Virus record (IMG/VR): IMGVR_UViG_3300030389_002443
Span: 1 to 64,000 of that record
DNA length: 64,000 nt
DNA from: a virus
Strand: one strand, 5' to 3'
The notes beneath the pieces are model-generated. The model was not told the origin of the DNA. It saw only the letters and a list, made by a program, of their open reading frames with translations, and did no database searches. Shown piece by piece: positions 2,180 through 59,316 of the stretch. The stretch's first letter is position 1; every line of letters begins with the position of its first letter. Made by a program: the position numbers and the translations under genes.

Positions 2180-2431
2180 TCACTCCTGTAAAGAATACCT
2201 CATTTGTTTTACACTCAATCCCGATGATTTTGGCTGACCAAGAGAAGATTCGGACATTACTTTAGGATGGTTATCTAAAAAAAGTTTGAGGTTTCTTGGC
2301 TTTAAGTTTCTTTTCTTTAAAGACCGTATAATTTCGGTAACTGTTGATTTAGGATAAAATTTTAAATGCTCTAAAATTTCTGCTTGAAGTTTTTTACCAA
2401 GTTCTCTTTTTAAAATATCTTGCCAACTCAT
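2180..2431 (-). CDS. Small wHTH-like protein with ILK tag
   Basis: 83 residues starting MSWQDILKRE. After the tag the pattern ILEHLKFYPKSTVTEIIRSL-KKRNLKPRNLKLFLDNHP is typical of a small winged-helix/helix-turn-helix domain and resembles the small wHTH proteins at 33767 and 37618. A tagged DNA-binding protein could enter the virion with the genome and act early. The start overlaps the stop of the upstream gene by four bases. Confidence 0.6.
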   Translation of the reverse strand: MSWQDILKRELGKKLQAEILEHLKFYPKSTVTEIIRSLKKRNLKPRNLKLFLDNHPKVMSESSLGQPKSSGLSVKQMRYSLQE

Positions 2432-3255
2432 TTTAAAAACCTCTCAAATGTTAAATCCCTATATAATTGTGATATTTCATTTTTGTATTTCATAGGGTTA
2501 TTTTTGAGTTTTGGGTTTAGTTTAAATCCATCATCTAAATTGCCTAACTCAAGGAACTCTTCACCATCTAAATCTTCAAAATAGTTATTTATCTCAAAAT
2601 AGACATAACCCGAATCAATTATCCCACCACGTTCTTGATACAATTTATTTCTATTTTGTCTAAACATAATTGGGTCATCCATATCAGCCTTATCCCAATC
2701 AAATTTTTCGGCCCATTCTTCAATGTCAGTAAGCATTCTTTTTATTTGCCTGTCTTCATACCCCTTTTCATATTCAATTACGTCCTTTGAGTCATAACCA
2801 GATATTAAACCTCTTTCTCTTAGTTCTTCCATGTCATCTTTATATCCCTTTAAAATTTTTTTAAATTGAGGAATCCTTGGTCTTTGACCCGCATCAGAAG
2901 GAATGCCTTGTGATACTCTTTTCCTAGCCTCTAATACTTGTTTTAATTTTTGAGAATCGAGTGTCTTTAGATATTTCAAATCTTGTTCATCGTGTGCAAT
3001 GGACTCAAGTTCTTTTTCTCTTTGAAGAATATTATCTAACTTTTTAGAATCAAAATTTATCATAGGTGTATGTTTTATTTTAGGGAAGTCTTTTGAAGGC
3101 GGCATTTGAAGTTTAGAAGGCAACGATGGATGTTTCCGTTCAGTTTGCTTCTCCACATCTTTAGCAGCCTCAGACATTGGCTCCGTTGTATTTCCATCAC
3201 CATCAAGGTCTATGAAATCTGGCTTCTTTGCCTTTAGGATGTCTTTCCAACTCAT
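2428..3255 (-). CDS. Late protein with ILK tag and DxDGDG motif
   Basis: About 275 residues from MSWKDILKAKK; the in-frame ATG three codons upstream is less likely. Residues 13-22 read FIDLDGDGNT followed by EPM, a calcium-binding-like DxDGDG loop that I recognise from short marine phage proteins. The rest is highly charged and helical (many Lys, Glu, Asp), ending in a C-terminal part rich in aromatic and acidic residues. No enzymatic motif seen. By analogy with phage proteins carrying the same loop plus EPM, it may be a head- or scaffold-associated protein, but this is weak. Confidence 0.6.
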   Translation of the reverse strand: MSWKDILKAKKPDFIDLDGDGNTTEPMSEAAKDVEKQTERKHPSLPSKLQMPPSKDFPKIKHTPMINFDSKKLDNILQREKELESIAHDEQDLKYLKTLDSQKLKQVLEARKRVSQGIPSDAGQRPRIPQFKKILKGYKDDMEELRERGLISGYDSKDVIEYEKGYEDRQIKRMLTDIEEWAEKFDWDKADMDDPIMFRQNRNKLYQERGGIIDSGYVYFEINNYFEDLDGEEFLELGNLDDGFKLNPKLKNNPMKYKNEISQLYRDLTFERFLK

Positions 3256-3264
3256 GTTAATCAC

Positions 3265-3564
3265 CTATAACATTGGATTGTCTTTTTTTGCATATACCGC
3301 CATCCTCTCGGCAACTTCCTTCATAAGTTTTTTAAGTTTATTATCAGCCATGTTATATTGGGCTGCAATATCCATAGCCTCGACCATCAAAGATTTAGGT
3401 AAAAACCCACCATAAACTTCTGAATAGTTTGATACTATATCATTGTGAATTAATCCACTTATCACTCCATGAACATCCTCTAATGCTTTCTGAGTTTCTT
3501 TAATATCTTTAAGCAACTTATTGAATGTATCAACATCATCTTTCAATATATCTTCCCACGCCAT
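3265..3564 (-). CDS. Small helical late protein with ILK tag
   Basis: About 99 residues from MAWEDILKDD; an in-frame ATG lies five codons upstream, but the tag and the GGAGGGT-like leader favour the inner start. It is predicted to be nearly all helix (heptads around FNKLLKDIKETQKALEDV and the C-terminal NKLKKLMKEVAERM). It is the first gene of the minus-strand late block, so its upstream region (3565-3640) should hold the late promoter. Function unknown. Confidence 0.6.
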   Translation of the reverse strand: MAWEDILKDDVDTFNKLLKDIKETQKALEDVHGVISGLIHNDIVSNYSEVYGGFLPKSLMVEAMDIAAQYNMADNKLKKLMKEVAERMAVYAKKDNPML

Positions 3565-4017
3565 GAATTTCGCCCCCACGCTTTGACCCTCCTAATCCTA
3601 CATTGGTCTTATAGTTTGGGAAGGATAATATGTTATCCGACACTTTTCAAAAAATGGGGTCAAATTTTTTTGGGGCTTGCAAAATTTTTTTAAAAGGTTT
3701 TATTCTATTTCCAGCGACAAAAGAATTAATCAACAAATTTTCAACATAACATCTCTCCATAAAACCTCTTGTCGGAAAATTGTTATGGGCTAATAAGACG
3801 CATTGTTGTGGGCTTATAGAATGCATTATTCCTCTTGGTAAATTTTCCCACAAAAGCCCGCATGATGAGAATCTTTTGATAAAAATCCCCACAAAAGAAT
3901 GGCTGCGGGGATAAGCATCAACAATCGACTTGAAAGAAAAGAAAAATAAAAAAATAAATAAAAAAAGTTTAAAAAAAAGTTTGTTGGTAAAACGGCTTTT
4001 AAAAAAAATTTTTGAAG
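3565..4017. promoter_or_regulatory. Divergent late/early control region
   Basis: About 450 bases without a convincing gene between the minus-strand late block and the plus-strand early block. On the minus strand a TATA-like ACTATAAG lies near 3606-3613, about 45 bases before the first late start. A perfect inverted repeat, GGATAA-TATG-TTATCC, sits at 3623-3638. Another minus-strand promoter candidate reads GGAATAATGC (3833-3824) followed by CTATAAG. The rest is A/T-rich with long A and T runs. A TATA element plus adjacent repeats suggests archaeal-type promoters controlled by a viral or host factor. Confidence 0.45.
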
Positions 4018-12863: not shown

Positions 12864-13697
12864 TTAGGTGACAATATTTTTTGCGAAAGTTGTGGCTAGA
12901 TGTAAATCTTTGATTGGGTCTATTGGAATATCGTTGTTGATGGCCCAAGTTACCAAATCTTCTGTGGCTAGATTAGCACCAGAATCTTTAGCAAAAGGAC
13001 AGCCACCTAAACCACCAATACTAGAGTCAAATTGTCTGATGCCCAAGTCATAGGCATGTTGTACATTGTCTAGAATAGGTTCTGATTTTTCATTGTGGTG
13101 GAGATGTATTGCCCATGTAGTTCCCATGTTTTTTATTAGGGGCGAAAGTTGTGAGATAGATTCTTTATTGGCTAGGCCAGATGTATCAGATAGGACAACA
13201 GTTGAGCCTAATATTGCCGAGGATTGTAATGTGCGTTTGAGATGTTCTGGGTCAAACTTTCCTTCAACTGGACAACCAAATGCATTAGAAACATAGACAC
13301 GAATATCATCTTTAGGAATGCCGTAGAGCATACTTCTGTATCGTGAAAAGAGTTGTTCTAGGCTTATGCCAAAGTTATCTTTATTGAATGTTTCAGAAGG
13401 AGAAAGACACACATTGAATTTTTTAGCACCTACTGAAATTGCACGTTTAAGTCCTTTTTCATTAGGTACAAGAACTCCAAGATTACAATCAAGGTGCGAA
13501 ACTTTTCTATAGAGTGCATCACTGTTAGCCATGTTCGGAACTTTCTTCGGATGGACAAAACTTCCAACTTCTATATTTTTTAAACCAGCGTTGTATAATA
13601 AATTAACCATAGTTACTTTGTCTTCTAAAGGGATTACAGATTTGATTCCCTGTAAACCATCTCTAGGGCCGACTTCGTAAATGGTTATTTTTTCCAT
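12864..13697 (-). CDS. HMG-CoA lyase
   Basis: 277 residues, a complete DRE-TIM barrel of the hydroxymethylglutaryl-CoA lyase type, which cleaves HMG-CoA to acetyl-CoA and acetoacetate. Seen: VGPRDGLQ at residues 9-16 (catalytic Arg12, metal-binding Asp13), SFVHPKKVPNM, LSDTSG, the metal-ligand pair His198/His200 (AIHLHH), the loop signature GLGGCPFA with Cys233, and ANLATEDLV with Asn242. Every residue known to be essential in characterised lyases is present, so activity is likely. It is slightly shorter than bacterial and human mature enzymes (about 300). It is the last gene of a four-gene minus-strand operon with small proteins, two of them clearly membrane-spanning. Archaeal lipids are made from HMG-CoA through mevalonate, so the enzyme could redirect host lipid precursor; this role is inferred. 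Isopropylmalate/homocitrate synthases share the barrel but lack the GGCPxA loop. Confidence 0.9.
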   Translation of the reverse strand: MEKITIYEVGPRDGLQGIKSVIPLEDKVTMVNLLYNAGLKNIEVGSFVHPKKVPNMANSDALYRKVSHLDCNLGVLVPNEKGLKRAISVGAKKFNVCLSPSETFNKDNFGISLEQLFSRYRSMLYGIPKDDIRVYVSNAFGCPVEGKFDPEHLKRTLQSSAILGSTVVLSDTSGLANKESISQLSPLIKNMGTTWAIHLHHNEKSEPILDNVQHAYDLGIRQFDSSIGGLGGCPFAKDSGANLATEDLVTWAINNDIPIDPIKDLHLATTFAKNIVT

Positions 13698-13876
13698 CTC
13701 TTTACTCTCCTAACGATTATAGTAGACAATGATACCCAAAATAAAACTTCTGCTGCAATTAGAATCCCTGCTACGATTGGGCCGAATTTGAATATGTCTC
13801 CGTTGAGGCAACCCTTCACTTGTTCGCAAACATCTGCCATTCTAGGGCCATCTATTGATGGTGGGTTAATGTTCAT
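13685..13876 (-). CDS. Small membrane protein (63 aa)
   Basis: An N-terminal soluble stretch with two Cys (VCEQVKGCLNG) is followed by one transmembrane helix (FGPIVAGILIAAEVLFWVSL) and a basic cytoplasmic-like tail (RRVKRWKK). Overlaps the start of the lyase gene by 13 bases. Function unknown; a membrane-anchored partner in the same operon. Confidence 0.6.
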   Translation of the reverse strand: MNINPPSIDGPRMADVCEQVKGCLNGDIFKFGPIVAGILIAAEVLFWVSLSTIIVRRVKRWKK

Positions 13877-14144
13877 TTTTATCCAATCCGTTTATTCGTG
13901 CGATTTGGCAACCATATCTTATTTTAGTTGTAGAGTCTAAATCCCAAAAGGTAACATTAGATTTGTTTTTATCGTTGATAGAATCTAAGTAAGCACATAG
14001 TTGTTTACGTGACATCTTTTGAAAATCTTCGTCAATGTCTAGACCTAAAATGTTACCATCATTTGGATAAGATACGAACTGTTCTATGAAGACATAAACC
14101 CATCCCATGAGTCTAAGAAAGGATTTAATTATTCCTCCCAACAT
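13866..14144 (-). CDS. Small, possibly membrane-attached protein (92 aa)
   Basis: Starts MLGGIIKSFLRLMGWVYVFI, an amphipathic to hydrophobic segment that may attach to the membrane, followed by a soluble, acidic then neutral domain. Overlaps both neighbours. No recognised family. Confidence 0.55.
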   Translation of the reverse strand: MLGGIIKSFLRLMGWVYVFIEQFVSYPNDGNILGLDIDEDFQKMSRKQLCAYLDSINDKNKSNVTFWDLDSTTKIRYGCQIARINGLDKNEH

Positions 14145-14301
14145 TCCTTAAACCTCCTTTAAAGTCTTGATTCAATTGTTCTTTTTCTACTTCATCAAAT
14201 GTTATTTCTCCAACGTCAAATGTTATGACATTTAGGAGGAAATACCAACTTAACGATAATAGAATTATTGCTGTTGCTCCCGCTATAAATAGTGTTGACA
14301 T
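14125..14301 (-). CDS. Small membrane protein (58 aa)
   Basis: Starts MSTLFIAGATAIILLSLSWY, a single transmembrane helix at the very N-terminus, then an acidic tail (FDVGEITFDEVEKEQ). It overlaps the next gene by 20 bases and is the first gene of the lyase operon. Confidence 0.55.
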   Translation of the reverse strand: MSTLFIAGATAIILLSLSWYFLLNVITFDVGEITFDEVEKEQLNQDFKGGLRNVGRNN

Positions 14302-14398
14302 GACCAGCGCAAGTCGGTGTAGAAAATAAACTAGTAGGTAAGATTGTGTGTGAAAACGTCCATTAGTTATTTATGTATGATTTGCCAGCGAACCTTAC

Positions 14399-14728
14399 AT
14401 GCAAAAAACCTACTCCTTCCACATCACTGATAGTGAAGGGAAATGGAGAATACAATACGAATCTAAAAAGAATGCTTCTAGGATAAAATTGAAAATGATT
14501 AAGGCACTTTGGAAAGAAGAAGGGTTGACAGTGAATGGTATAAGAGATAAGATTGCAGAAACATCCACACACATTCCCACCTCTAATCAACTGGGGAATA
14601 TCTTGCGTGGTTATGATTTATTCAAGTCGACAGAGAAGACAACTGTTGCGTATATAGGAAGTCAATGCAATAGAGTAATGAAGTGGAGTTTAGATATGTC
14701 TTGTTTGAATTTTGAACAAGTCGCTTAA
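14399..14728 (+). CDS. Winged-helix-like DNA-binding protein (109 aa)
   Basis: Residues about 32-80 (IKALWKEEGLTVNGIRDKIA ... NQLGNILRGYDLF) have helix-turn-helix plus wing spacing. It is transcribed divergently from the lyase operon, as expected for a local regulator. Probably a viral transcription regulator; its target is unknown. Confidence 0.55.
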   Translation: MQKTYSFHITDSEGKWRIQYESKKNASRIKLKMIKALWKEEGLTVNGIRDKIAETSTHIPTSNQLGNILRGYDLFKSTEKTTVAYIGSQCNRVMKWSLDMSCLNFEQVA

Positions 14729-14816
14729 TGCTTACTTTTCCGACATAACACGTTCTATAGAAAAATTTGTAAGTGTATTTTTGAGTGGTAACAATTTAGC
14801 CCATCTCGTGTGGTTA

Positions 14817-14873
14817 GGAACAATGCTTATATATGGAATATATTCTCGTTAACAATATGCGAGGGAACAATGA
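14817..14873 (+). promoter_or_regulatory. Promoter with flanking GGAACAATG repeats
   Basis: GGAACAATGC (14817-14826), TATA box TTATATATG (14827-14835), an ATG at 14857 exactly 29 bases after the first T of TATATAT, and GGGAACAATG (14863-14872). The ATG opens only an eight-codon frame (MRGNNDD, stop), so here the downstream repeat is conserved without coding for a longer protein. Confidence 0.6.
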
Positions 14874-15175
14874 TGACTAGCAAGAAAATTAAGAAAATTA
14901 AGAAATGGCCAAGAGAGAAGAAACTAGAACTTAAATGGGTGCAAGTAAGCGAACACTGGGATAATCTTAGAGGAGAAAACCCGTCACTCGATTCAATTTT
15001 TAGTATTTTCATTCAACCTTGTCGTCATCCAGATTGTAATAGAGATAAAGTAGTGGCGAATAAATGTAATTACATTGTAGTTTCAAGAGACAACGATGAT
15101 GAAGTTATGTGTGGAACACATCTTAAAATGGATTACAGGATATGTAAAAATGAATCCTGTAAAGTATGTAATTGA
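14870..15175 (+). CDS. Zinc-binding-like protein (101 aa)
   Basis: Starts at the doubled ATGATG after the promoter repeat (MMTSKKIKKIKKWPREKK). The basic start is followed by a domain with Cys/His spacing: PCRHPDCNRD, NKCNY, MCGTHL, RICKNESCKVC. Eight Cys suggest two zinc sites. Family not recognised. Confidence 0.55.
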   Translation: MMTSKKIKKIKKWPREKKLELKWVQVSEHWDNLRGENPSLDSIFSIFIQPCRHPDCNRDKVVANKCNYIVVSRDNDDEVMCGTHLKMDYRICKNESCKVCN

Positions 15176-21232: not shown

Positions 21233-21787
21233 ATGAGCAAGAGAGTATTAGTAATAGGTGCGGGTGGAATAGGTAGTAATTTAATCCCAATTCTTAGCAG
21301 AATAGGATTATACAACATCACTGTATTTGACCCAGACATAGTAGAAGAAAAAAATATCACTTATCAAAACTTTAAGTTAGGTGAAGTAGGGATGAAAAAA
21401 GCAAATGTAATGGTTAAGTATAAAAAAGTAAAAGGTGAACCATATGCAATATTAACTAAAGAGCAAATTAAGGGATATGATTTGGTTGTATGTTGTGTTG
21501 ATAACTTAGCAGCAAGAAGACTGCTATATGATTATGATAAGCCTTGGTTGGATTTAAGAGCGCAAGGTAGAGGGTGTGTCCTTATCTCATATAAAACGCC
21601 AGTCGAAAAATATAACGAATTGTTAGCGGGGCCAGATGGTAATTTCTCATGTCAAGGAAATGAATGGGATGGTAAAGCAAAGGGTATCAATTGTATGCAT
21701 TACGTTGTGGCTGGATTAGGCGCACAATGGATTCAAAGATGGTTCGCTGGAGATTACGTTGATGATGAAATGGTGGTGTGGTTTTGA
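21233..21787 (+). CDS. E1/ThiF/MoeB-like adenylating enzyme
   Basis: 184 residues, only the adenylation core. VLVIGAGGIGSNLIPIL is the nucleotide-binding Rossmann loop. FDPDIVEEKNITYQNF corresponds to the conserved D...N...Q segment of E1 enzymes, and VVCCVDNLAARRLL to the DNxxxR segment. Cys residues at FSCQG and INCMHY are candidates for thioester or metal sites. Such enzymes adenylate the C-terminal Gly of ubiquitin-like proteins. Shorter than typical ThiF/MoeB (about 250). It overlaps the JAB gene, so the two are translated together, and a Gly-Gly protein is encoded at 18606. Confidence 0.85.
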   Translation: MSKRVLVIGAGGIGSNLIPILSRIGLYNITVFDPDIVEEKNITYQNFKLGEVGMKKANVMVKYKKVKGEPYAILTKEQIKGYDLVVCCVDNLAARRLLYDYDKPWLDLRAQGRGCVLISYKTPVEKYNELLAGPDGNFSCQGNEWDGKAKGINCMHYVVAGLGAQWIQRWFAGDYVDDEMVVWF

Positions 21788-22656: not shown

Positions 22657-22999
22657 ATGGGTATTGATTGAAGTAGAACAACAAGAAGAAAACGGTATTC
22701 TTATAGAAGAAGGTAATCGTGGAAAAATAGTATCGTATGGTGCTGATTGTTGTTTCGTGAAAGACATAGCAGAAGGTATTATGACGGCCTTACACGAAAA
22801 CGGTGAGATGTGGAAATCCCCACCAGAAGAAGTGTTTATACAAGGTTCGGCAGAAAATCCTTTCATTGGGGCTGAATGTTATTTTAGCCCTAGAAACGCT
22901 ATAGATGTTGAAGGTTTGAAATGTGTAAGAGACGCAGATATTTTTTGTGTTATACCTTTGGTTAGAACAATAGAAGTAGGTGGTGATACTTTATGTTAA
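22634..22999 (+). CDS. GroES-like co-chaperonin
   Basis: About 121 residues. MKMKAVGKWVLIEVEQQEEN-GILI and GKIVSYGAD match the first strands of the Cpn10/GroES fold (GDRVLVxxxxxEE...GIxxP...GxVxxxG). The C-terminus (DIFCVIPL) matches the final strand. The middle (residues about 45-85) is an insertion or a remodelled mobile loop. It lies directly before and overlaps the GroEL-type gene, the classic groES-groEL order. Assignment rests on pattern and gene order. Confidence 0.6.
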   Translation: MKMKAVGKWVLIEVEQQEENGILIEEGNRGKIVSYGADCCFVKDIAEGIMTALHENGEMWKSPPEEVFIQGSAENPFIGAECYFSPRNAIDVEGLKCVRDADIFCVIPLVRTIEVGGDTLC

Positions 23000-24519
23000 T
23001 TGGTGATGAGGCAAGGGAAGTTTTCAAAACTGGTTTACACAAAGTACACACAGCAGTTGCCCCGACACTAGGGCCAGCAGCAAGAACAGTCGCACTAAAA
23101 CGTAATGGTAGAACTATTGTAATTAATGATGGTGTTACCATTGCAAGAAAGGTTTGGTCAGAAGACCCTTATGAACAAATGGGTATTGATTTAATTTTAG
23201 GGGCAGCAGAAAACGCTCAATCTAAATCTGGTGATGGAACAACAACAGCGACAGTATTGGCTAATGCTATTGTTCAAAATTATGATTATAGTCGTGTTTC
23301 AGATTTTACTGAGTTATTAGAAAAAGACATTAAAAAAGTATGTGAGTTCTTATACAATAAAAAGAGTATTTGTAATTTAGAAGATGTTACTAATGTGGCT
23401 ACTATCGCTGCTAACAATGATTCTGAGTTAGGTCAACTTATTCATGACGTGTTCAAACAAATAGGTAAAGATGGTGTAATCACTGTTGAAAAATCAGATA
23501 CAAACCAAACAACATATAATATGACAGAAGGATTAGAAATAGACAAAGGGTATTTATCTCATCTTATGATTAATGATGATTCTACGGGGGAAGCGATTTT
23601 AAAAAATCCTTTAGTATTATTAACGGATAAAGAAATTAAAAAGTTTGAAGATATATTACCAGCATTAAAAATAGCAGATGCTAATTCACAACCACTTCTT
23701 GTTATATGTAAAGAAATGGAAGGTAGTGCGTTATCTAATATCTTGTTAAACATAGTCCAAAAAAGAATAGATTGTTGTGTGGTTCGTGCGCCAGATTGGG
23801 GGCCGACACAAGTTGAACTATTAAGAGACATGGCTGCTATTTGTGGGGCTAACCCATACTTGTCTACATTAGATATGGATTTAAGAAAAATCAAAAAAGA
23901 TGATTTAGGGACTTTAGATAGAGCAGTAGTAAATAGATACAGTACTGTTTTAATTGGTAAACCACCAAACGAAGAAATATATCAAAAGAGAATAGGCGAC
24001 CTTAATGCTATGTTAGAACAAGTAAAAGAGGATTGGGAAAAAGACAAACTCAGAACAAGACTTGGTAGATTAACTGGTGGGGTGGCCGTAATAAAAGTAG
24101 GTGGTATGACTGAAACAGAAATTACCGAAAGAAAAGAAAGATTAGATGATGCATTAAATGCAAGTAGAGCAGCATTACAGGATGGTATCATTGCTGGTGG
24201 AGGATTTATGTTGAATCTTGCTACTATAGAGTGTGACATCAAAAGTGAAGCATTGAAAAAAGCATTATCAGAACCTATGAAAATTATTGCTAGAAATGCA
24301 GGTCAAGAAATTAGTGGTCAGTATGAAAGAGATATTGTTGATGGTTATGGTTATGATGCTAAAAACAAAAGAATGATTAAAGACTTTTTAGATTTACAAC
24401 ATGGTATTGTTGACCCAGTTTTGGTTACTATGAATTCATTGAGGGTAGCAGCATCTATTGCAAATTTGATATTATCAACAGAAGTAATTATTGCGGAGAA
24501 GGAACAAAATGGATTCTAA
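22993..24519 (+). CDS. Group I (GroEL/Hsp60-type) chaperonin
   Basis: 508 residues against about 545 for GroEL. TLGPAARTVALKRNG, INDGVTIARKV, GDGTTTATVLANAI (nucleotide site, Asp of GDGTT), the apical domain, ALQDGIIAGGG and DPVLVTMNSLRVAASIANLI-LSTE correspond to GroEL segments. TATVLA (not TAVVLA) marks group I rather than the archaeal thermosome. The Gly/Met-rich tail is missing. With the GroES-like partner it probably folds viral proteins such as capsid or the giant tail protein. Chaperonins are reported in related archaeal viruses, but a group I type in an archaeal virus is notable. Confidence 0.85.
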   Translation: MLIGDEAREVFKTGLHKVHTAVAPTLGPAARTVALKRNGRTIVINDGVTIARKVWSEDPYEQMGIDLILGAAENAQSKSGDGTTTATVLANAIVQNYDYSRVSDFTELLEKDIKKVCEFLYNKKSICNLEDVTNVATIAANNDSELGQLIHDVFKQIGKDGVITVEKSDTNQTTYNMTEGLEIDKGYLSHLMINDDSTGEAILKNPLVLLTDKEIKKFEDILPALKIADANSQPLLVICKEMEGSALSNILLNIVQKRIDCCVVRAPDWGPTQVELLRDMAAICGANPYLSTLDMDLRKIKKDDLGTLDRAVVNRYSTVLIGKPPNEEIYQKRIGDLNAMLEQVKEDWEKDKLRTRLGRLTGGVAVIKVGGMTETEITERKERLDDALNASRAALQDGIIAGGGFMLNLATIECDIKSEALKKALSEPMKIIARNAGQEISGQYERDIVDGYGYDAKNKRMIKDFLDLQHGIVDPVLVTMNSLRVAASIANLILSTEVIIAEKEQNGF

Positions 24520-31369: not shown

Positions 31370-32121
31370 TAATAAATATGGATAGTTTTCTAAAGGCAAT
31401 CAAGTATTGTACAATGAAGGGCAAATGGGGCGATAAAAGTGGTGAGTTATCATCTCAGATAACTTGTAAAGTCGAAGATAATAATTTATATTTGCTTAGT
31501 GCTAACAGAGCAAACTCTGTTGCTGTAGCATATAAGTTGGTCTTAGACAACGCAGAAGATGTTGAGTTTGTTTTAGATTTAGAAGTGTTGCCTATGTTGA
31601 AAACCTTTTCTGGTGAGGTTGAGTTTGAGGTTGATAATGTTTTGACAATATTGCAAGGTAGTGATTCTGCTACAGTTCCGTTAGTCGCTCATCATGAAAA
31701 TGAATCAGCGATTGATAGATTTAGTCCTAAGTTAATCAATTGGATTGATGAAGGTTTTGGGCCAGACTTTACATTCGGTTCAACTAAATATGACTTAACA
31801 GTAAACTTAGATGCTGATAGTTTGACTCAATCTATTAAGGCTTGTGACACAGTGGGCGCATCTAATTATATTTTGAACTTTCATCCAAATGAAAGATTAT
31901 ATTTACAAGCATCTAAAGGTCAAAGAAAAATATCTAACGAATTACAAATGAGAGAACATAGTGGTAACGCTGCTACTGTTCCTTTTGCAGCACCTATTCA
32001 TGTTTTATTTCAAAGTGAAAACGAATGGGATAATAGAATCAATTTGAGATTACATGATGACATGCCGTTATTTGCAAGTACAGATTTCGCTGCAATAGTA
32101 GTAGCACCATACATGAGTTGA
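31366..32121 (+). CDS. PCNA sliding clamp
   Basis: 251 residues, the standard PCNA length. MDSFLKAIKYC, then two similar halves (ILQG..., then LTVNLDADSLTQSIKACDTV) and a C-terminal APYMS in place of the usual APK/AP end. The ring would tether the viral polymerase and other partners with PIP tails. Overlaps both neighbours, between the recombinase and the polymerase. Confidence 0.8.
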   Translation: MIINMDSFLKAIKYCTMKGKWGDKSGELSSQITCKVEDNNLYLLSANRANSVAVAYKLVLDNAEDVEFVLDLEVLPMLKTFSGEVEFEVDNVLTILQGSDSATVPLVAHHENESAIDRFSPKLINWIDEGFGPDFTFGSTKYDLTVNLDADSLTQSIKACDTVGASNYILNFHPNERLYLQASKGQRKISNELQMREHSGNAATVPFAAPIHVLFQSENEWDNRINLRLHDDMPLFASTDFAAIVVAPYMS

Positions 32122-33767
32122 GATACATGATTATCACACACAAAGATAATACTATTTATCTTAGATGGCGTGATGAAAATGGTAATAGATTAGAAAAAGA
32201 AGTTACTGATTTTAGACCATATTTTTATGTAAATTCTGATGAAAGAATGCCGCAAGCATATAATATTCGTGTTACTAATTCTCAAGGTAGAAAGATGAAA
32301 CTACCTCAAGAGTTTGTTTACGAGAGAACCAACCATGTCAATTTAGAAAAACAACCTTTGACTAAAGTTATGGTTACTAAATATAATGATATTAGAACCG
32401 CTAGAAAATACTTTGATAAAACATACGAGGCTGATGTAAGTTTCACTCATCGTTATTGTATTGATGAGATGACCGAAATACCAGAATATGATTTACGCAA
32501 GTGGTATTGGGATATGGAATGGATGACTACAGGAGAATATGATGGGGCAATAACAACTATTGCTGTTTATGATAATTATGCAGATTGCATAAACTTATAC
32601 TATTGGACTCCCAAAGATGCTAAACTAGATATGATTGTAGTAGATGCTGTCGAGTATCATTTTAATTCAGAAAAAGATATGCTTGAGGCTTTTGTTGCTG
32701 ATGTAGAAGAACAAGACCCAGACATGTTGATTGCATGGTTTGGGTTACAAGCAGATGTCCCTAAGTTATTTGAAAGGTTAGAAGAAAATAATATTGATAT
32801 TGGTAGACTATCTCCTATAGGATTAGTTAAACCTAGTAAGAAAGCATGGAATCAAATATCACCTATATCTCAACCTATTTATGGTAGATTGTGTCTAAAC
32901 TTAGACCATGCGTTTGAAAGACAATGGAACGATGCACAACGAGGAACTTTACCATCTACTGCTTTAGATTTCGTTGGCAATCTTTTATTTGGAGAAGGTA
33001 AAAAGAAAGAGTCTAAATTTACGGATAAAAACGAATTCTTTAGAAGGGCTTGGTTAGAAGACACTCAAAATTATTTAGATTATAATATTCAAGATGTGGT
33101 ATTACTAAAACGAATAGATGATGAAAACGCAATATCAGAATCGATACTAGCATTACAACGATTACTAGTTGCACCTTTCGATGCTTGTTTCTATGCTTCT
33201 CACATGGGGGGTATTTATTTCATGAGACACGCTGATTGGAAAGTACCAACAGGCGATAAGGACGCTGAAAGAGTAGAGGTAACTGGGGCTATGATATTCG
33301 ACCCAGAAATAAACAAAACACATGGTAGGCATGATAATGTTGCGGCCTTCGATTTTGCACAACTATATCCTTCTATGATGATGGCTAGGAATATTAGTTG
33401 GGAAACTAAATCTCGTACACCTACAGATTTTGCTTGTAATTTAGCGACACCACAAGACTTTAGCCCTGTAATCAAAAAAGATATGAGGTATTATAAAACA
33501 GATAAACTAGGTTTGTTACCAAGGTCTGTTCTTAATCTTAAACGACTTAGAGATGAGTACAAGTCTAAAATGAAAAAGGCAGACTCTAAAGAAGAATATC
33601 AAAAATGGTTTAACAATCAGATGGCTGTAAAAAGACTTATGGCCAGTTTCTATGGTGTAACTGCGTTTCCTAAGTTTGGTTGGTATGACCCAGATTTGGC
33701 TAACAGTATTACTGCTAGTGCTAGAGAAGCAATTAGACATGCTGCTAAAGTTGCGGAGGGATTATAA
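32118..33767 (+). CDS. Family B DNA polymerase, N-terminal part
   Basis: 549 residues. Exonuclease I WDME (Asp132/Glu134), exonuclease III YNIQD, motif A FDFAQLYPSMM (Asp412), and motif B KRLMASFYG (Lys505). The protein stops soon after motif B; motif C lies in a separate gene at 34226. Both parts are intact and the split is clean, so the enzyme is probably a heterodimer, as in Methanothermobacter. The start is TTG (overlapping the PCNA stop) or ATG three codons later. Exonuclease II is altered (WFGLQAD, Phe where Asn is usual). Confidence 0.92.
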   Translation: MRYMIITHKDNTIYLRWRDENGNRLEKEVTDFRPYFYVNSDERMPQAYNIRVTNSQGRKMKLPQEFVYERTNHVNLEKQPLTKVMVTKYNDIRTARKYFDKTYEADVSFTHRYCIDEMTEIPEYDLRKWYWDMEWMTTGEYDGAITTIAVYDNYADCINLYYWTPKDAKLDMIVVDAVEYHFNSEKDMLEAFVADVEEQDPDMLIAWFGLQADVPKLFERLEENNIDIGRLSPIGLVKPSKKAWNQISPISQPIYGRLCLNLDHAFERQWNDAQRGTLPSTALDFVGNLLFGEGKKKESKFTDKNEFFRRAWLEDTQNYLDYNIQDVVLLKRIDDENAISESILALQRLLVAPFDACFYASHMGGIYFMRHADWKVPTGDKDAERVEVTGAMIFDPEINKTHGRHDNVAAFDFAQLYPSMMMARNISWETKSRTPTDFACNLATPQDFSPVIKKDMRYYKTDKLGLLPRSVLNLKRLRDEYKSKMKKADSKEEYQKWFNNQMAVKRLMASFYGVTAFPKFGWYDPDLANSITASAREAIRHAAKVAEGL

Positions 33768-33994
33768 TGGTCAATGCTAAAAACAAATATCAAAGAATTA
33801 TCAAACAAGCAATAGATATATTAGGTGATGATGAAATGACCACTAGAGAACTTTATGATATTTATGTTGATAAACATTTTAGGTCATGTCCTACAATACA
33901 AGGATTAGGTATGATTTTAAAAAGACATAAAGAATTTGTTAGATTAAATAAATATGATTATCCTGCAAGATGGAGGGTTCGGGATGAGCAGTGA
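33767..33994 (+). CDS. Small winged-helix protein in the polymerase split (75 aa)
   Basis: IDILGDDEMTTRELYDIYVD ... IQGLGMILKRHKEFVRLNKY is a winged-helix layout much like that of the gene at 37618. It shares a base with the polymerase stop (TAATG). Its position between the two polymerase parts is unusual. DNA-binding is likely; role unknown. Confidence 0.55.
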   Translation: MVNAKNKYQRIIKQAIDILGDDEMTTRELYDIYVDKHFRSCPTIQGLGMILKRHKEFVRLNKYDYPARWRVRDEQ

Positions 33995-34229
33995 GGCTAC
34001 ACATATATGTAGAAGATGTAAAGGAACTGAGGCTTATAAAACAGTGATAAAAGGTAAGGGGTTAGTTGTGTGTGTAGAATGTGATTACGAATGGGTTCCA
34101 CATGGTTATTGTTTACATTGTAGAAAAGCACTACAACCTATTGGTTCTGCTAGAATGAATGGCGCACCACATAAGGATTGGAGTTCTAGAAAATATCACA
34201 AAAAATGTTGGAAGGAGTTGAATTTATGA
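33984..34229 (+). CDS. Small double zinc-finger protein in the polymerase split (81 aa)
   Basis: The start at MSSEATHICRRCKGTEAYKT is preferred. CRRC ... VCVEC forms one zinc ribbon; YCLHC ... YHKKC a second, similar to the gene at 19044. Overlaps the second polymerase part by four bases. Probably nucleic-acid-binding. Confidence 0.55.
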   Translation: MSSEATHICRRCKGTEAYKTVIKGKGLVVCVECDYEWVPHGYCLHCRKALQPIGSARMNGAPHKDWSSRKYHKKCWKELNL

Positions 34230-35029
34230 AAGTAATATACGCTCACACAGATTCTTTGTTTTGTCCTGTTGAGTCGATAGACCACGCTAAAAGCACATGT
34301 GATTATCTCAATCAACAGGTTAGAGAAATATTCCCTAATATTCTTGGTTTAGACCAGCACCCAGTTACTTTAGAATTTGAAAAGTTTTATTCTTCTCTCG
34401 GTATAGGTATTACTAAAAATCGAAATGCTGGTTTCATATCTTGGAAAGATGGTGAACATTTGGATGAGCCAGAATTTGTAGTCACAGGTTTCTCTGTAAA
34501 AAAATCTACAGAAATACACATTGCAAAAATTGTGCAAGAGATGGTTTTGAAAATGTGGGCGAATGGCAAATCTGAAAAGGAAGTCACCAAATATTTAAAG
34601 CAAGCATACCAAAATATCAAGAAAGGTAAAATAGAAATGGGTAGTTTTCTTAAAAGGTCAAGGCTTAGAAAATCTATTAATGATTATGCAACATTAGCGG
34701 GTGGAGTTGCAGGTGCAGTATATTACAATACTCACTTGAATCCTTCTGACCCCATAACAGATTCTTTTATCACAATCAAATGCAATATATTATCTGGCCC
34801 TAAAACTGTTCCACTAAATGATGGGACTTCTAGGGTAGCGACTTATATTTCAGTCAAAGAAAAAAATGAACTATTGCCTTTATTAGAAGAAGGTAAGATA
34901 GAAATAGATTATGGGTATTATGCCGACTATTGTATTAACAAGGCTGACCCTATATACAAAGCAATGGGTTGGGATATGTATCACATTTACGCTGACCCGA
35001 AACAAAAAACATTGGAGGATTGGTTTTGA
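34226..35029 (+). CDS. Family B DNA polymerase, C-terminal part
   Basis: 267 residues, beginning almost exactly at motif C: MKVIYAHTDSLF, where most relatives have Y-x-DTDS. His replaces the first Asp; the second, more critical Asp (residue 9) is kept. The thumb follows, with FEKFYSSLGIGITKNRNAGF corresponding to the KKRY region. It ends QKTLEDWF, a good PCNA-interacting (PIP) tail. No intein remnants are seen at the junction. Confidence 0.9.
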   Translation: MKVIYAHTDSLFCPVESIDHAKSTCDYLNQQVREIFPNILGLDQHPVTLEFEKFYSSLGIGITKNRNAGFISWKDGEHLDEPEFVVTGFSVKKSTEIHIAKIVQEMVLKMWANGKSEKEVTKYLKQAYQNIKKGKIEMGSFLKRSRLRKSINDYATLAGGVAGAVYYNTHLNPSDPITDSFITIKCNILSGPKTVPLNDGTSRVATYISVKEKNELLPLLEEGKIEIDYGYYADYCINKADPIYKAMGWDMYHIYADPKQKTLEDWF

Positions 35030-58280: not shown

Positions 58281-59174
58281 TTACATTGTTTGGTGTGAAT
58301 ATAATACATTGAACCATTCTGATTTAGTGAAAGGTTGTTTTTGTTGTGGGCCAGCAGGTGGTGGGTTAGCAGGTGGTGGGCCTGTTCTTGTTCCTGCTGG
58401 TGGTGTACCTGCTACTGGTCGTTTAATGTCTCTACCATGTAGTTTACCTTTGTTTTGTTCTGCTTGTAATTGTGCTTCTAATGCTTCAAGTCTTGGTCGT
58501 GCAGCAGGATTACCAGCAACTTCCGCTTTCATTTGTTGTATCTGATTATTTAAATCTTGAATAACTTGTGGGTCTGGTCGAGCAGCCACATTTGCTTGAG
58601 TGGGTGATGGGACATTTGTTTGTGCGCCTCTTGGTTGATTGGGACTAGGTGTTACCATTTGCCCTAATCTTTGTTTGCCATATCCTGCCGCACTACGTAA
58701 AGCACCTAAACCACCTTTTACCCCTCTTAATGCTAATTTACCTGCTCCTGCTGCTAACTGACTCCTATAACTTTGTCCTGCTGCACCGAATGGTACTTGA
58801 TTTTGAGATGAGGCTTGATTATTTATATTCCTAATTTGCGCTGGAGTCATACCAGATTGTTGAAGGTATGTTACTTCTTCTCTACTTAAATTTCTAAATT
58901 GAGGGTGTGGGTTTGCTTTTGCTTGTGCTTGAAGTTCATTACCTTGTTCTGGTTTGAGAGTTATTGCATCTGCTCTCCCTTGTACTGCTTGTTGTGGTGT
59001 GGGCTTTCCTTGAGGTTGTTGTTGCCGTTGTTGCATTCGTTGTCTCTCTGCTGCTGTCGGTGGGCCTCGTCTTCTTCGAGTTTGAGGATTGGCTGGTTGA
59101 GCAATAGGAAGCCCTACGTCCAACGTACCTTGTTGCTTACCTCGTTGCTTAAGAATATCAAACCATTCACTCAT
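58281..59174 (-). CDS. Disordered Gln/Pro-rich protein with ILK-like tag at both ends
   Basis: 297 residues from MSEWFDILKQRGKQQG, a variant of the late tag. The end PFTKSEWFNVLYSHQTM repeats SEWFxxL at the C-terminus. Between them the chain is Gln-, Pro-, Ala- and Arg-rich, probably disordered, with one Gly/Ala-rich helical part. Located between tail tube and tail chaperone. May be a scaffold or linker that brings tagged proteins together. Confidence 0.6.
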   Translation of the reverse strand: MSEWFDILKQRGKQQGTLDVGLPIAQPANPQTRRRRGPPTAAERQRMQQRQQQPQGKPTPQQAVQGRADAITLKPEQGNELQAQAKANPHPQFRNLSREEVTYLQQSGMTPAQIRNINNQASSQNQVPFGAAGQSYRSQLAAGAGKLALRGVKGGLGALRSAAGYGKQRLGQMVTPSPNQPRGAQTNVPSPTQANVAARPDPQVIQDLNNQIQQMKAEVAGNPAARPRLEALEAQLQAEQNKGKLHGRDIKRPVAGTPPAGTRTGPPPANPPPAGPQQKQPFTKSEWFNVLYSHQTM

Positions 59175-59316
59175 TTTCTTCAACTACTGTTTCTTCTTTT
59201 TTCTTTCTAGACTTGCGTTGTTTCTTTGGCTTAGGAGGATTTTTCTTAGCCTCTAATACTCTTAATTTAGGAATTGCTTCTCTACGATGAGATTTTAAAT
59301 TAATTGTTTTTTCCAT
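59167..59316 (-). CDS. Small basic protein (49 aa)
   Basis: MEKTINLKSHRREAIPKLRV, then a Lys/Arg/Pro stretch (KPKKQRKSRKKK) and an acidic end. Overlaps the start of the next gene by eight bases. Function unknown. Confidence 0.5.
   Translation of the reverse strand: MEKTINLKSHRREAIPKLRVLEAKKNPPKPKKQRKSRKKKEETVVEENE

Follow-up and report, generated by a model that had tools for sequence, protein, structure and literature searches.

The window, 64,000 nucleotides of a 67,131-base IMG/VR record, carries the gene for a complete HMG-CoA lyase, which probably serves as a working auxiliary metabolic enzyme of a magrovirus-like virus of marine, probably Poseidoniales, archaea. The full residue set, the family matches and the predicted fold bear out the original prediction of a complete lyase. 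Each of the six catalytic and metal-binding residues that it named (Arg12, Asp13, His198, His200, Cys233 and Asn242) was found in the 277-aa protein, together with E43 and D171, which it had not listed. By alignment, R12, D13, E43 and D171 correspond to R41, D42, E72 and D204 of human HMGCL, and H198, H200, C233 and N242 to its H233, H235, C266 and N275. The equivalents of Gln45, Ser75 and Asn138 were also retained in the alignment of the main viral lyase family, as was the GLGGCP loop, which holds the catalytic Cys and is a feature of HMG-CoA lyases.

Among the NCBIfam families, hydroxymethylglutaryl-CoA lyase was by far the best for the window lyase (205.6 bits, E=9e-61), while homocitrate synthase, the next family, reached 23 bits; the Pfam HMGL-like family matched with E=2.4e-22. 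The score lies below the curated PRK05692 cut-off of 246 bits, which is a naming threshold and less a biochemical feature. The best matches in a PDB sequence search were all HMG-CoA lyases. When the AlphaFold model (pLDDT 94.5) was compared with PDB structures, HMG-CoA lyases filled the first 14 places at TM about 0.87-0.92, with 0.92 for human HMGCL (2cw6), and the methylthioalkylmalate, isopropylmalate and homocitrate synthases trailed after a gap.

Table 1. Features of the window, with their positions, strands and the basis of assignment.
Feature	Position	Strand	Basis
HMG-CoA lyase, DRE-TIM metallolyase, 277 aa (ATG at 13697, stop at 12864)	12864-13697	-	residues, Pfam/NCBIfam, AlphaFold, PDB matches; dN/dS 0.14 vs L001
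63-aa protein, one hydrophobic stretch	13685-13876	-	dN/dS 0.08 vs L001
92-aa protein, cluster c31	13866-14144	-	alignment; dN/dS 0.14 vs L001
58-aa protein, cluster c59, first gene of the operon	14125-14301	-	dN/dS 0.13 vs L001
Tagged protein	2180-2431	-	N-terminal peptide
Tagged protein	2428-3264	-	N-terminal peptide
Tagged protein	3265-3579	-	N-terminal peptide
Tagged protein	58281-59183	-	N-terminal peptide
ThiF/E1-like protein	21233-21787	+	Pfam 3.9e-19
Chaperonin, divergent type	22993-24519	+	E about 1e-38
PolB, first part	32118-33767	+	
Small ORF between the PolB parts	33954-34229		
PolB, second part	34205-35029	+	

The lyase had been described as closing a four-gene operon, and the overlapping same-strand frames and Shine-Dalgarno-like sites confirmed this arrangement. 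On the minus strand, the genes for the 58-aa, 92-aa and 63-aa proteins are followed by the lyase; the 3′ end of the 63-aa gene and the start of the lyase share 13 nt, the 92-aa gene shares 11 nt with the gene after it, and Shine-Dalgarno-like AGGAG(G) sequences lie ahead of the 92-aa gene and of the lyase. Compared with the relative L001, all four genes had dN/dS values of 0.08-0.14, and this purifying selection, which includes the lyase, indicates that all four are real genes. The description of the small neighbours as membrane-type proteins likewise held, since the 58-aa protein, with one hydrophobic stretch, and the 63-aa protein look membrane-spanning when judged by eye. The 63-aa protein had no match in Pfam, PHROG or PADLOC. 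The 92-aa protein c31, which has 139 confirmed viral relatives, showed a hydrophobic N-terminal segment and a conserved LDSTxKIR motif in the alignment, and homologues of c59 stand beside c31 in L001 and L106.

The view that the lyase is borne by a virus proved right, and an archaeal-type host, which had also been named, is probable. The replication genes of the window are of archaeal type (split PolB, RFC, ATP-dependent ligase, ERCC4 nuclease and PD-(D/E)XK nuclease); it also has a chaperonin and matches to tail tube and tail fibre proteins, with a weak one to a tape measure protein, and the best matches of its RFC were haloarchaeal tailed viruses. Tailed-virus genes, an archaeal-type replisome and a chaperonin, the gene content used to recognize magroviruses, therefore occur together in the window. 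Magroviruses, which are tailed viruses infecting Poseidoniales / Marine Group II archaea, have been described as carrying a chaperonin, and one was found in 33 of the 41 lyase-bearing records examined; three of the 41 had a clear archaeal TFB; the ICTV profile of the Aoguangviridae lists PolB, clamp loader, ligase, chaperonin and HMG-CoA lyase (PMC10768690). Gene content, as distinct from formal placement in a family, points to a magrovirus-like tailed virus, and its host would probably be a marine archaeon of the Poseidoniales. As separate observations, the PolB of the window is split over two frames with a small ORF between them (Table 1), and the Aoguangviridae figure legend likewise lists PolB-NTD and PolB-CTD (PMC10768690). 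Two chaperonin types occur in these viruses, a divergent one in the window and in G002, G007, G009-G011 and G013, and another with E below 1e-115 in most other lyase-bearing records. A ThiF/E1-like protein is encoded shortly before the window chaperonin.

The scan of viral contigs gave 52 lyase loci, and 10 further records, a very divergent lineage among them, were reached via the neighbour gene c31; with the window included, the lyase is present in 63 viral records, some of them near-identical, and identity to the window copy ranges from about 37 to 92%. The catalytic residues were invariant in the 53 main-family copies at all positions that the alignment covers, and also in the 10 further copies; one shortened copy lacks the R12-D13 end. 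An origin by faulty assembly or from host DNA had been named as a way in which the prediction could fail, and the contig is indeed metagenomic, but L001 is collinear with the window (90% DNA identity across 12903-14876) and the 63 viral records place the gene in several conserved viral contexts, which makes such an origin extremely improbable.

A phylogeny against bacterial lyases, suggested along with the original prediction, placed all viral lyases on one side of a 100/100 branch and 58 bacterial lyases on the other; as the cellular lyases in the tree were all bacterial, one clade is not yet one capture, and the presumed host is a possible source. The same split was obtained in a tree without a divergent viral lineage. 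This lineage (L143, L144, L145, L156, L159, L160, L162, L163 and L141) misses the GCPxEG loop and keeps the R, D, E, D, H, H, C and N residues, and its lyase is inserted beside c31, downstream of the chaperonin in most members. When genome contigs were scanned with the lyase, the best matches were bacterial among the matches listed.

Three INPHARED matches were not accepted as viral lyases. In two Acinetobacter 'phage' records the lyase belongs to an operon with acyl-CoA dehydrogenase, carboxylase and enoyl-CoA hydratase genes, and the stretch examined holds nothing viral, so that these records are probably bacterial DNA; the third, MT836185, is an unannotated record and was not counted as evidence. 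One of these records, the 328-kb 'Acinetobacter phage MD-2021a' (L004, CAKLQH020000001.1), shows a bacterial-looking acyl-CoA catabolic operon in 10.8 kb and is probably a bacterial chromosome mislabelled as phage.

The viral lyases differ from the bacterial ones in their motifs. A Thr two residues past the second metal-binding His was found in 92% of the bacterial lyase set, whereas Gly, Asn, Arg or Lys replaces Thr237 of this H-D-T motif in the viral copies; the GCPxEG loop is changed or missing in many viral copies, and Gly274, which adjoins the metal-binding Asn, is likewise relaxed. Because Thr237 is lost and the GCPxEG loop altered or missing, substrate preference may have shifted, and, judged from the alignment, these changes could permit altered substrate handling. 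A related reaction, the aldol-type cleavage of a different 3-hydroxy-3-methyl acyl-CoA or diacid, would agree with both changes and with the score under the family cut-off, but it is an improbable reading given that the main family keeps the catalytic set, the GLGGCP loop and the Asn138, Gln45 and Ser75 equivalents, and that the predicted structure is nearest to HMG-CoA lyase. In our reading the substrate would be HMG-CoA itself.

Further, the position of the lyase was compared among genomes. About 20 loci have it between the terminase and portal genes; in others it occupies a slot on the downstream side of the chaperonin and c31, and in the window it lies near c59/c31. A search of viral contigs with the same neighbours, which had been suggested as a check, succeeded in part: lyase relatives stand near c31 in several records besides the window, but most c31 loci are without one, the lyase being found within 6 kb of c31 at 11 of the 80 c31 loci surveyed (L138-L217). 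We therefore rejected the 92-aa c31 as an obligate lyase partner, and the membrane proteins are better regarded as neighbours. In these 80 loci the slot beside c31, which in many cases lies downstream of the chaperonin, is occupied by genes that differ from virus to virus, and it is possibly a cargo hot spot.

We infer the following course of action. The lyase would be made during infection from the last gene of its operon, would hold a divalent metal by D13, H198, H200 and N242, and would, with R12 and C233 in catalysis, cleave host HMG-CoA to acetyl-CoA and acetoacetate in an irreversible reaction. In archaea, HMG-CoA arises in the mevalonate route and membrane isoprenoid lipids are made through it, while a leucine-degrading host gets HMG-CoA from the leucine route as well. 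As the cleavage is one-way, any activity would divert HMG-CoA of whatever source from mevalonate and isoprenoid lipids towards acetyl-CoA and acetoacetate. The 41 lyase-bearing records, many of which are probably incomplete, yielded no thiolase, HMG-CoA reductase or CoA-transferase; a viral multi-enzyme pathway was rejected on this result, and the lyase most likely acts alone on the host pool.

What the virus would gain can be read in two main ways, of which acetyl-CoA supply, the leucine end-step included, is placed slightly ahead of lipid limitation. It is quite conceivable that the lyase completes the breakdown of leucine or isovalerate in a host that feeds on peptides, easing a bottleneck on the way from amino acids, freed during infection, to acetyl-CoA and acetoacetate. 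In the literature, Marine Group II archaea figure as degraders of proteins and peptides that have transporters for branched-chain amino acids, and HMGCL 'involving in leucine degradation' is among the auxiliary metabolic genes assigned to magroviruses (PMC10160649), but this KEGG label is an annotation and not a test, the literature search gave no statement of upstream leucine enzymes in the hosts, and the 41 viral records yielded neither the thiolase nor the CoA-transferase searched for. A somewhat more tentative possibility is that the lyase depletes HMG-CoA and stops isoprenoid lipid synthesis, which would free acetyl-CoA or weaken the host membrane, with the operon's membrane proteins co-acting on the envelope. 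The passage of archaeal lipids through HMG-CoA, the occurrence of the lyase without the searched pathway partners and the setting of the window copy among small membrane-type proteins, with other lyases near c31 in several records, are consistent with lipid limitation, but for the majority of c31 loci no lyase lies within 6 kb, and many lyases sit far from c31, for example adjoining terminase/portal genes. As a more speculative and rather unlikely extension, the viral lyases could be a long-separate virus-specific branch whose HDT and GCPxEG changes are tuned to throttle archaeal isoprenoid synthesis; if true, the virus would be using the lyase as a metabolic weapon, aimed at a pathway that is peculiar to archaeal membranes.

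HMG-CoA is a branch point between carbon catabolism, such as leucine breakdown, and archaeal membrane lipids, and a viral lyase would consequently touch a pathway that bacterial phages need not target in the same way. Since very divergent viruses of marine archaea have kept the gene, it may well confer a steady benefit, and its role is open to tests in vitro and in tractable archaea.

A separate observation concerns dozens of unrelated proteins in these viral contigs that start with one of two recurrent peptides. M(T/S)(A/P)FDxAWxLLK (pattern R1) opens 87 proteins of 51 unrelated clusters and M(S/T)W(K/Q/E)DILK (R2) opens 55 proteins of 36, with N-terminal enrichments over the remaining proteins of about 27-fold and 18-fold, respectively, which are partly circular because the patterns were written by eye from these proteins; neither had an N-terminal match among 826 proteins from bacterial loci. 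Four tagged proteins are encoded in the window (Table 1), and others in L002, L009, L012, L015, L107, L116, L118, L120, L128, L130, L132 and further records, while the HMG-CoA lyase never carries either peptide. The peptides are possibly a targeting or packaging signal, such as a capsid- or compartment-targeting tag. A limited literature search turned up no description of them, and they may be more novel than the lyase finding.

The statement that no virus with this enzyme had been described was wrong, as HMG-CoA lyase is named for magroviruses in PMC10160649 and, for the Aoguangviridae, in the ICTV profile (PMC10768690). The magrovirus lyase is the same enzyme, found in archaeal tailed viruses with chaperonin, PolB, RFC and DNA ligase, and was published as an annotation; the residue conservation across the family, the virus-only clade among the sampled sequences, the movement between slots and the motif changes are, as far as checked, new here. 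Compared with cellular lyases (human HMGCL 2cw6/3mp5, Acinetobacter 6nds and Bacillus subtilis 1ydo), the window lyase shares the fold, the catalytic and metal-binding residues and the GLGGCP loop, but it is shorter, has lost Thr237 and is about 30-35% identical in structural alignments, and the viral lyases form a clade of their own apart from the bacterial ones. The homocitrate, isopropylmalate and citramalate synthases, which are DRE-TIM relatives, have the TIM barrel and metal site in common with the window lyase but are more distant, at TM about 0.77 and 14-20% identity.
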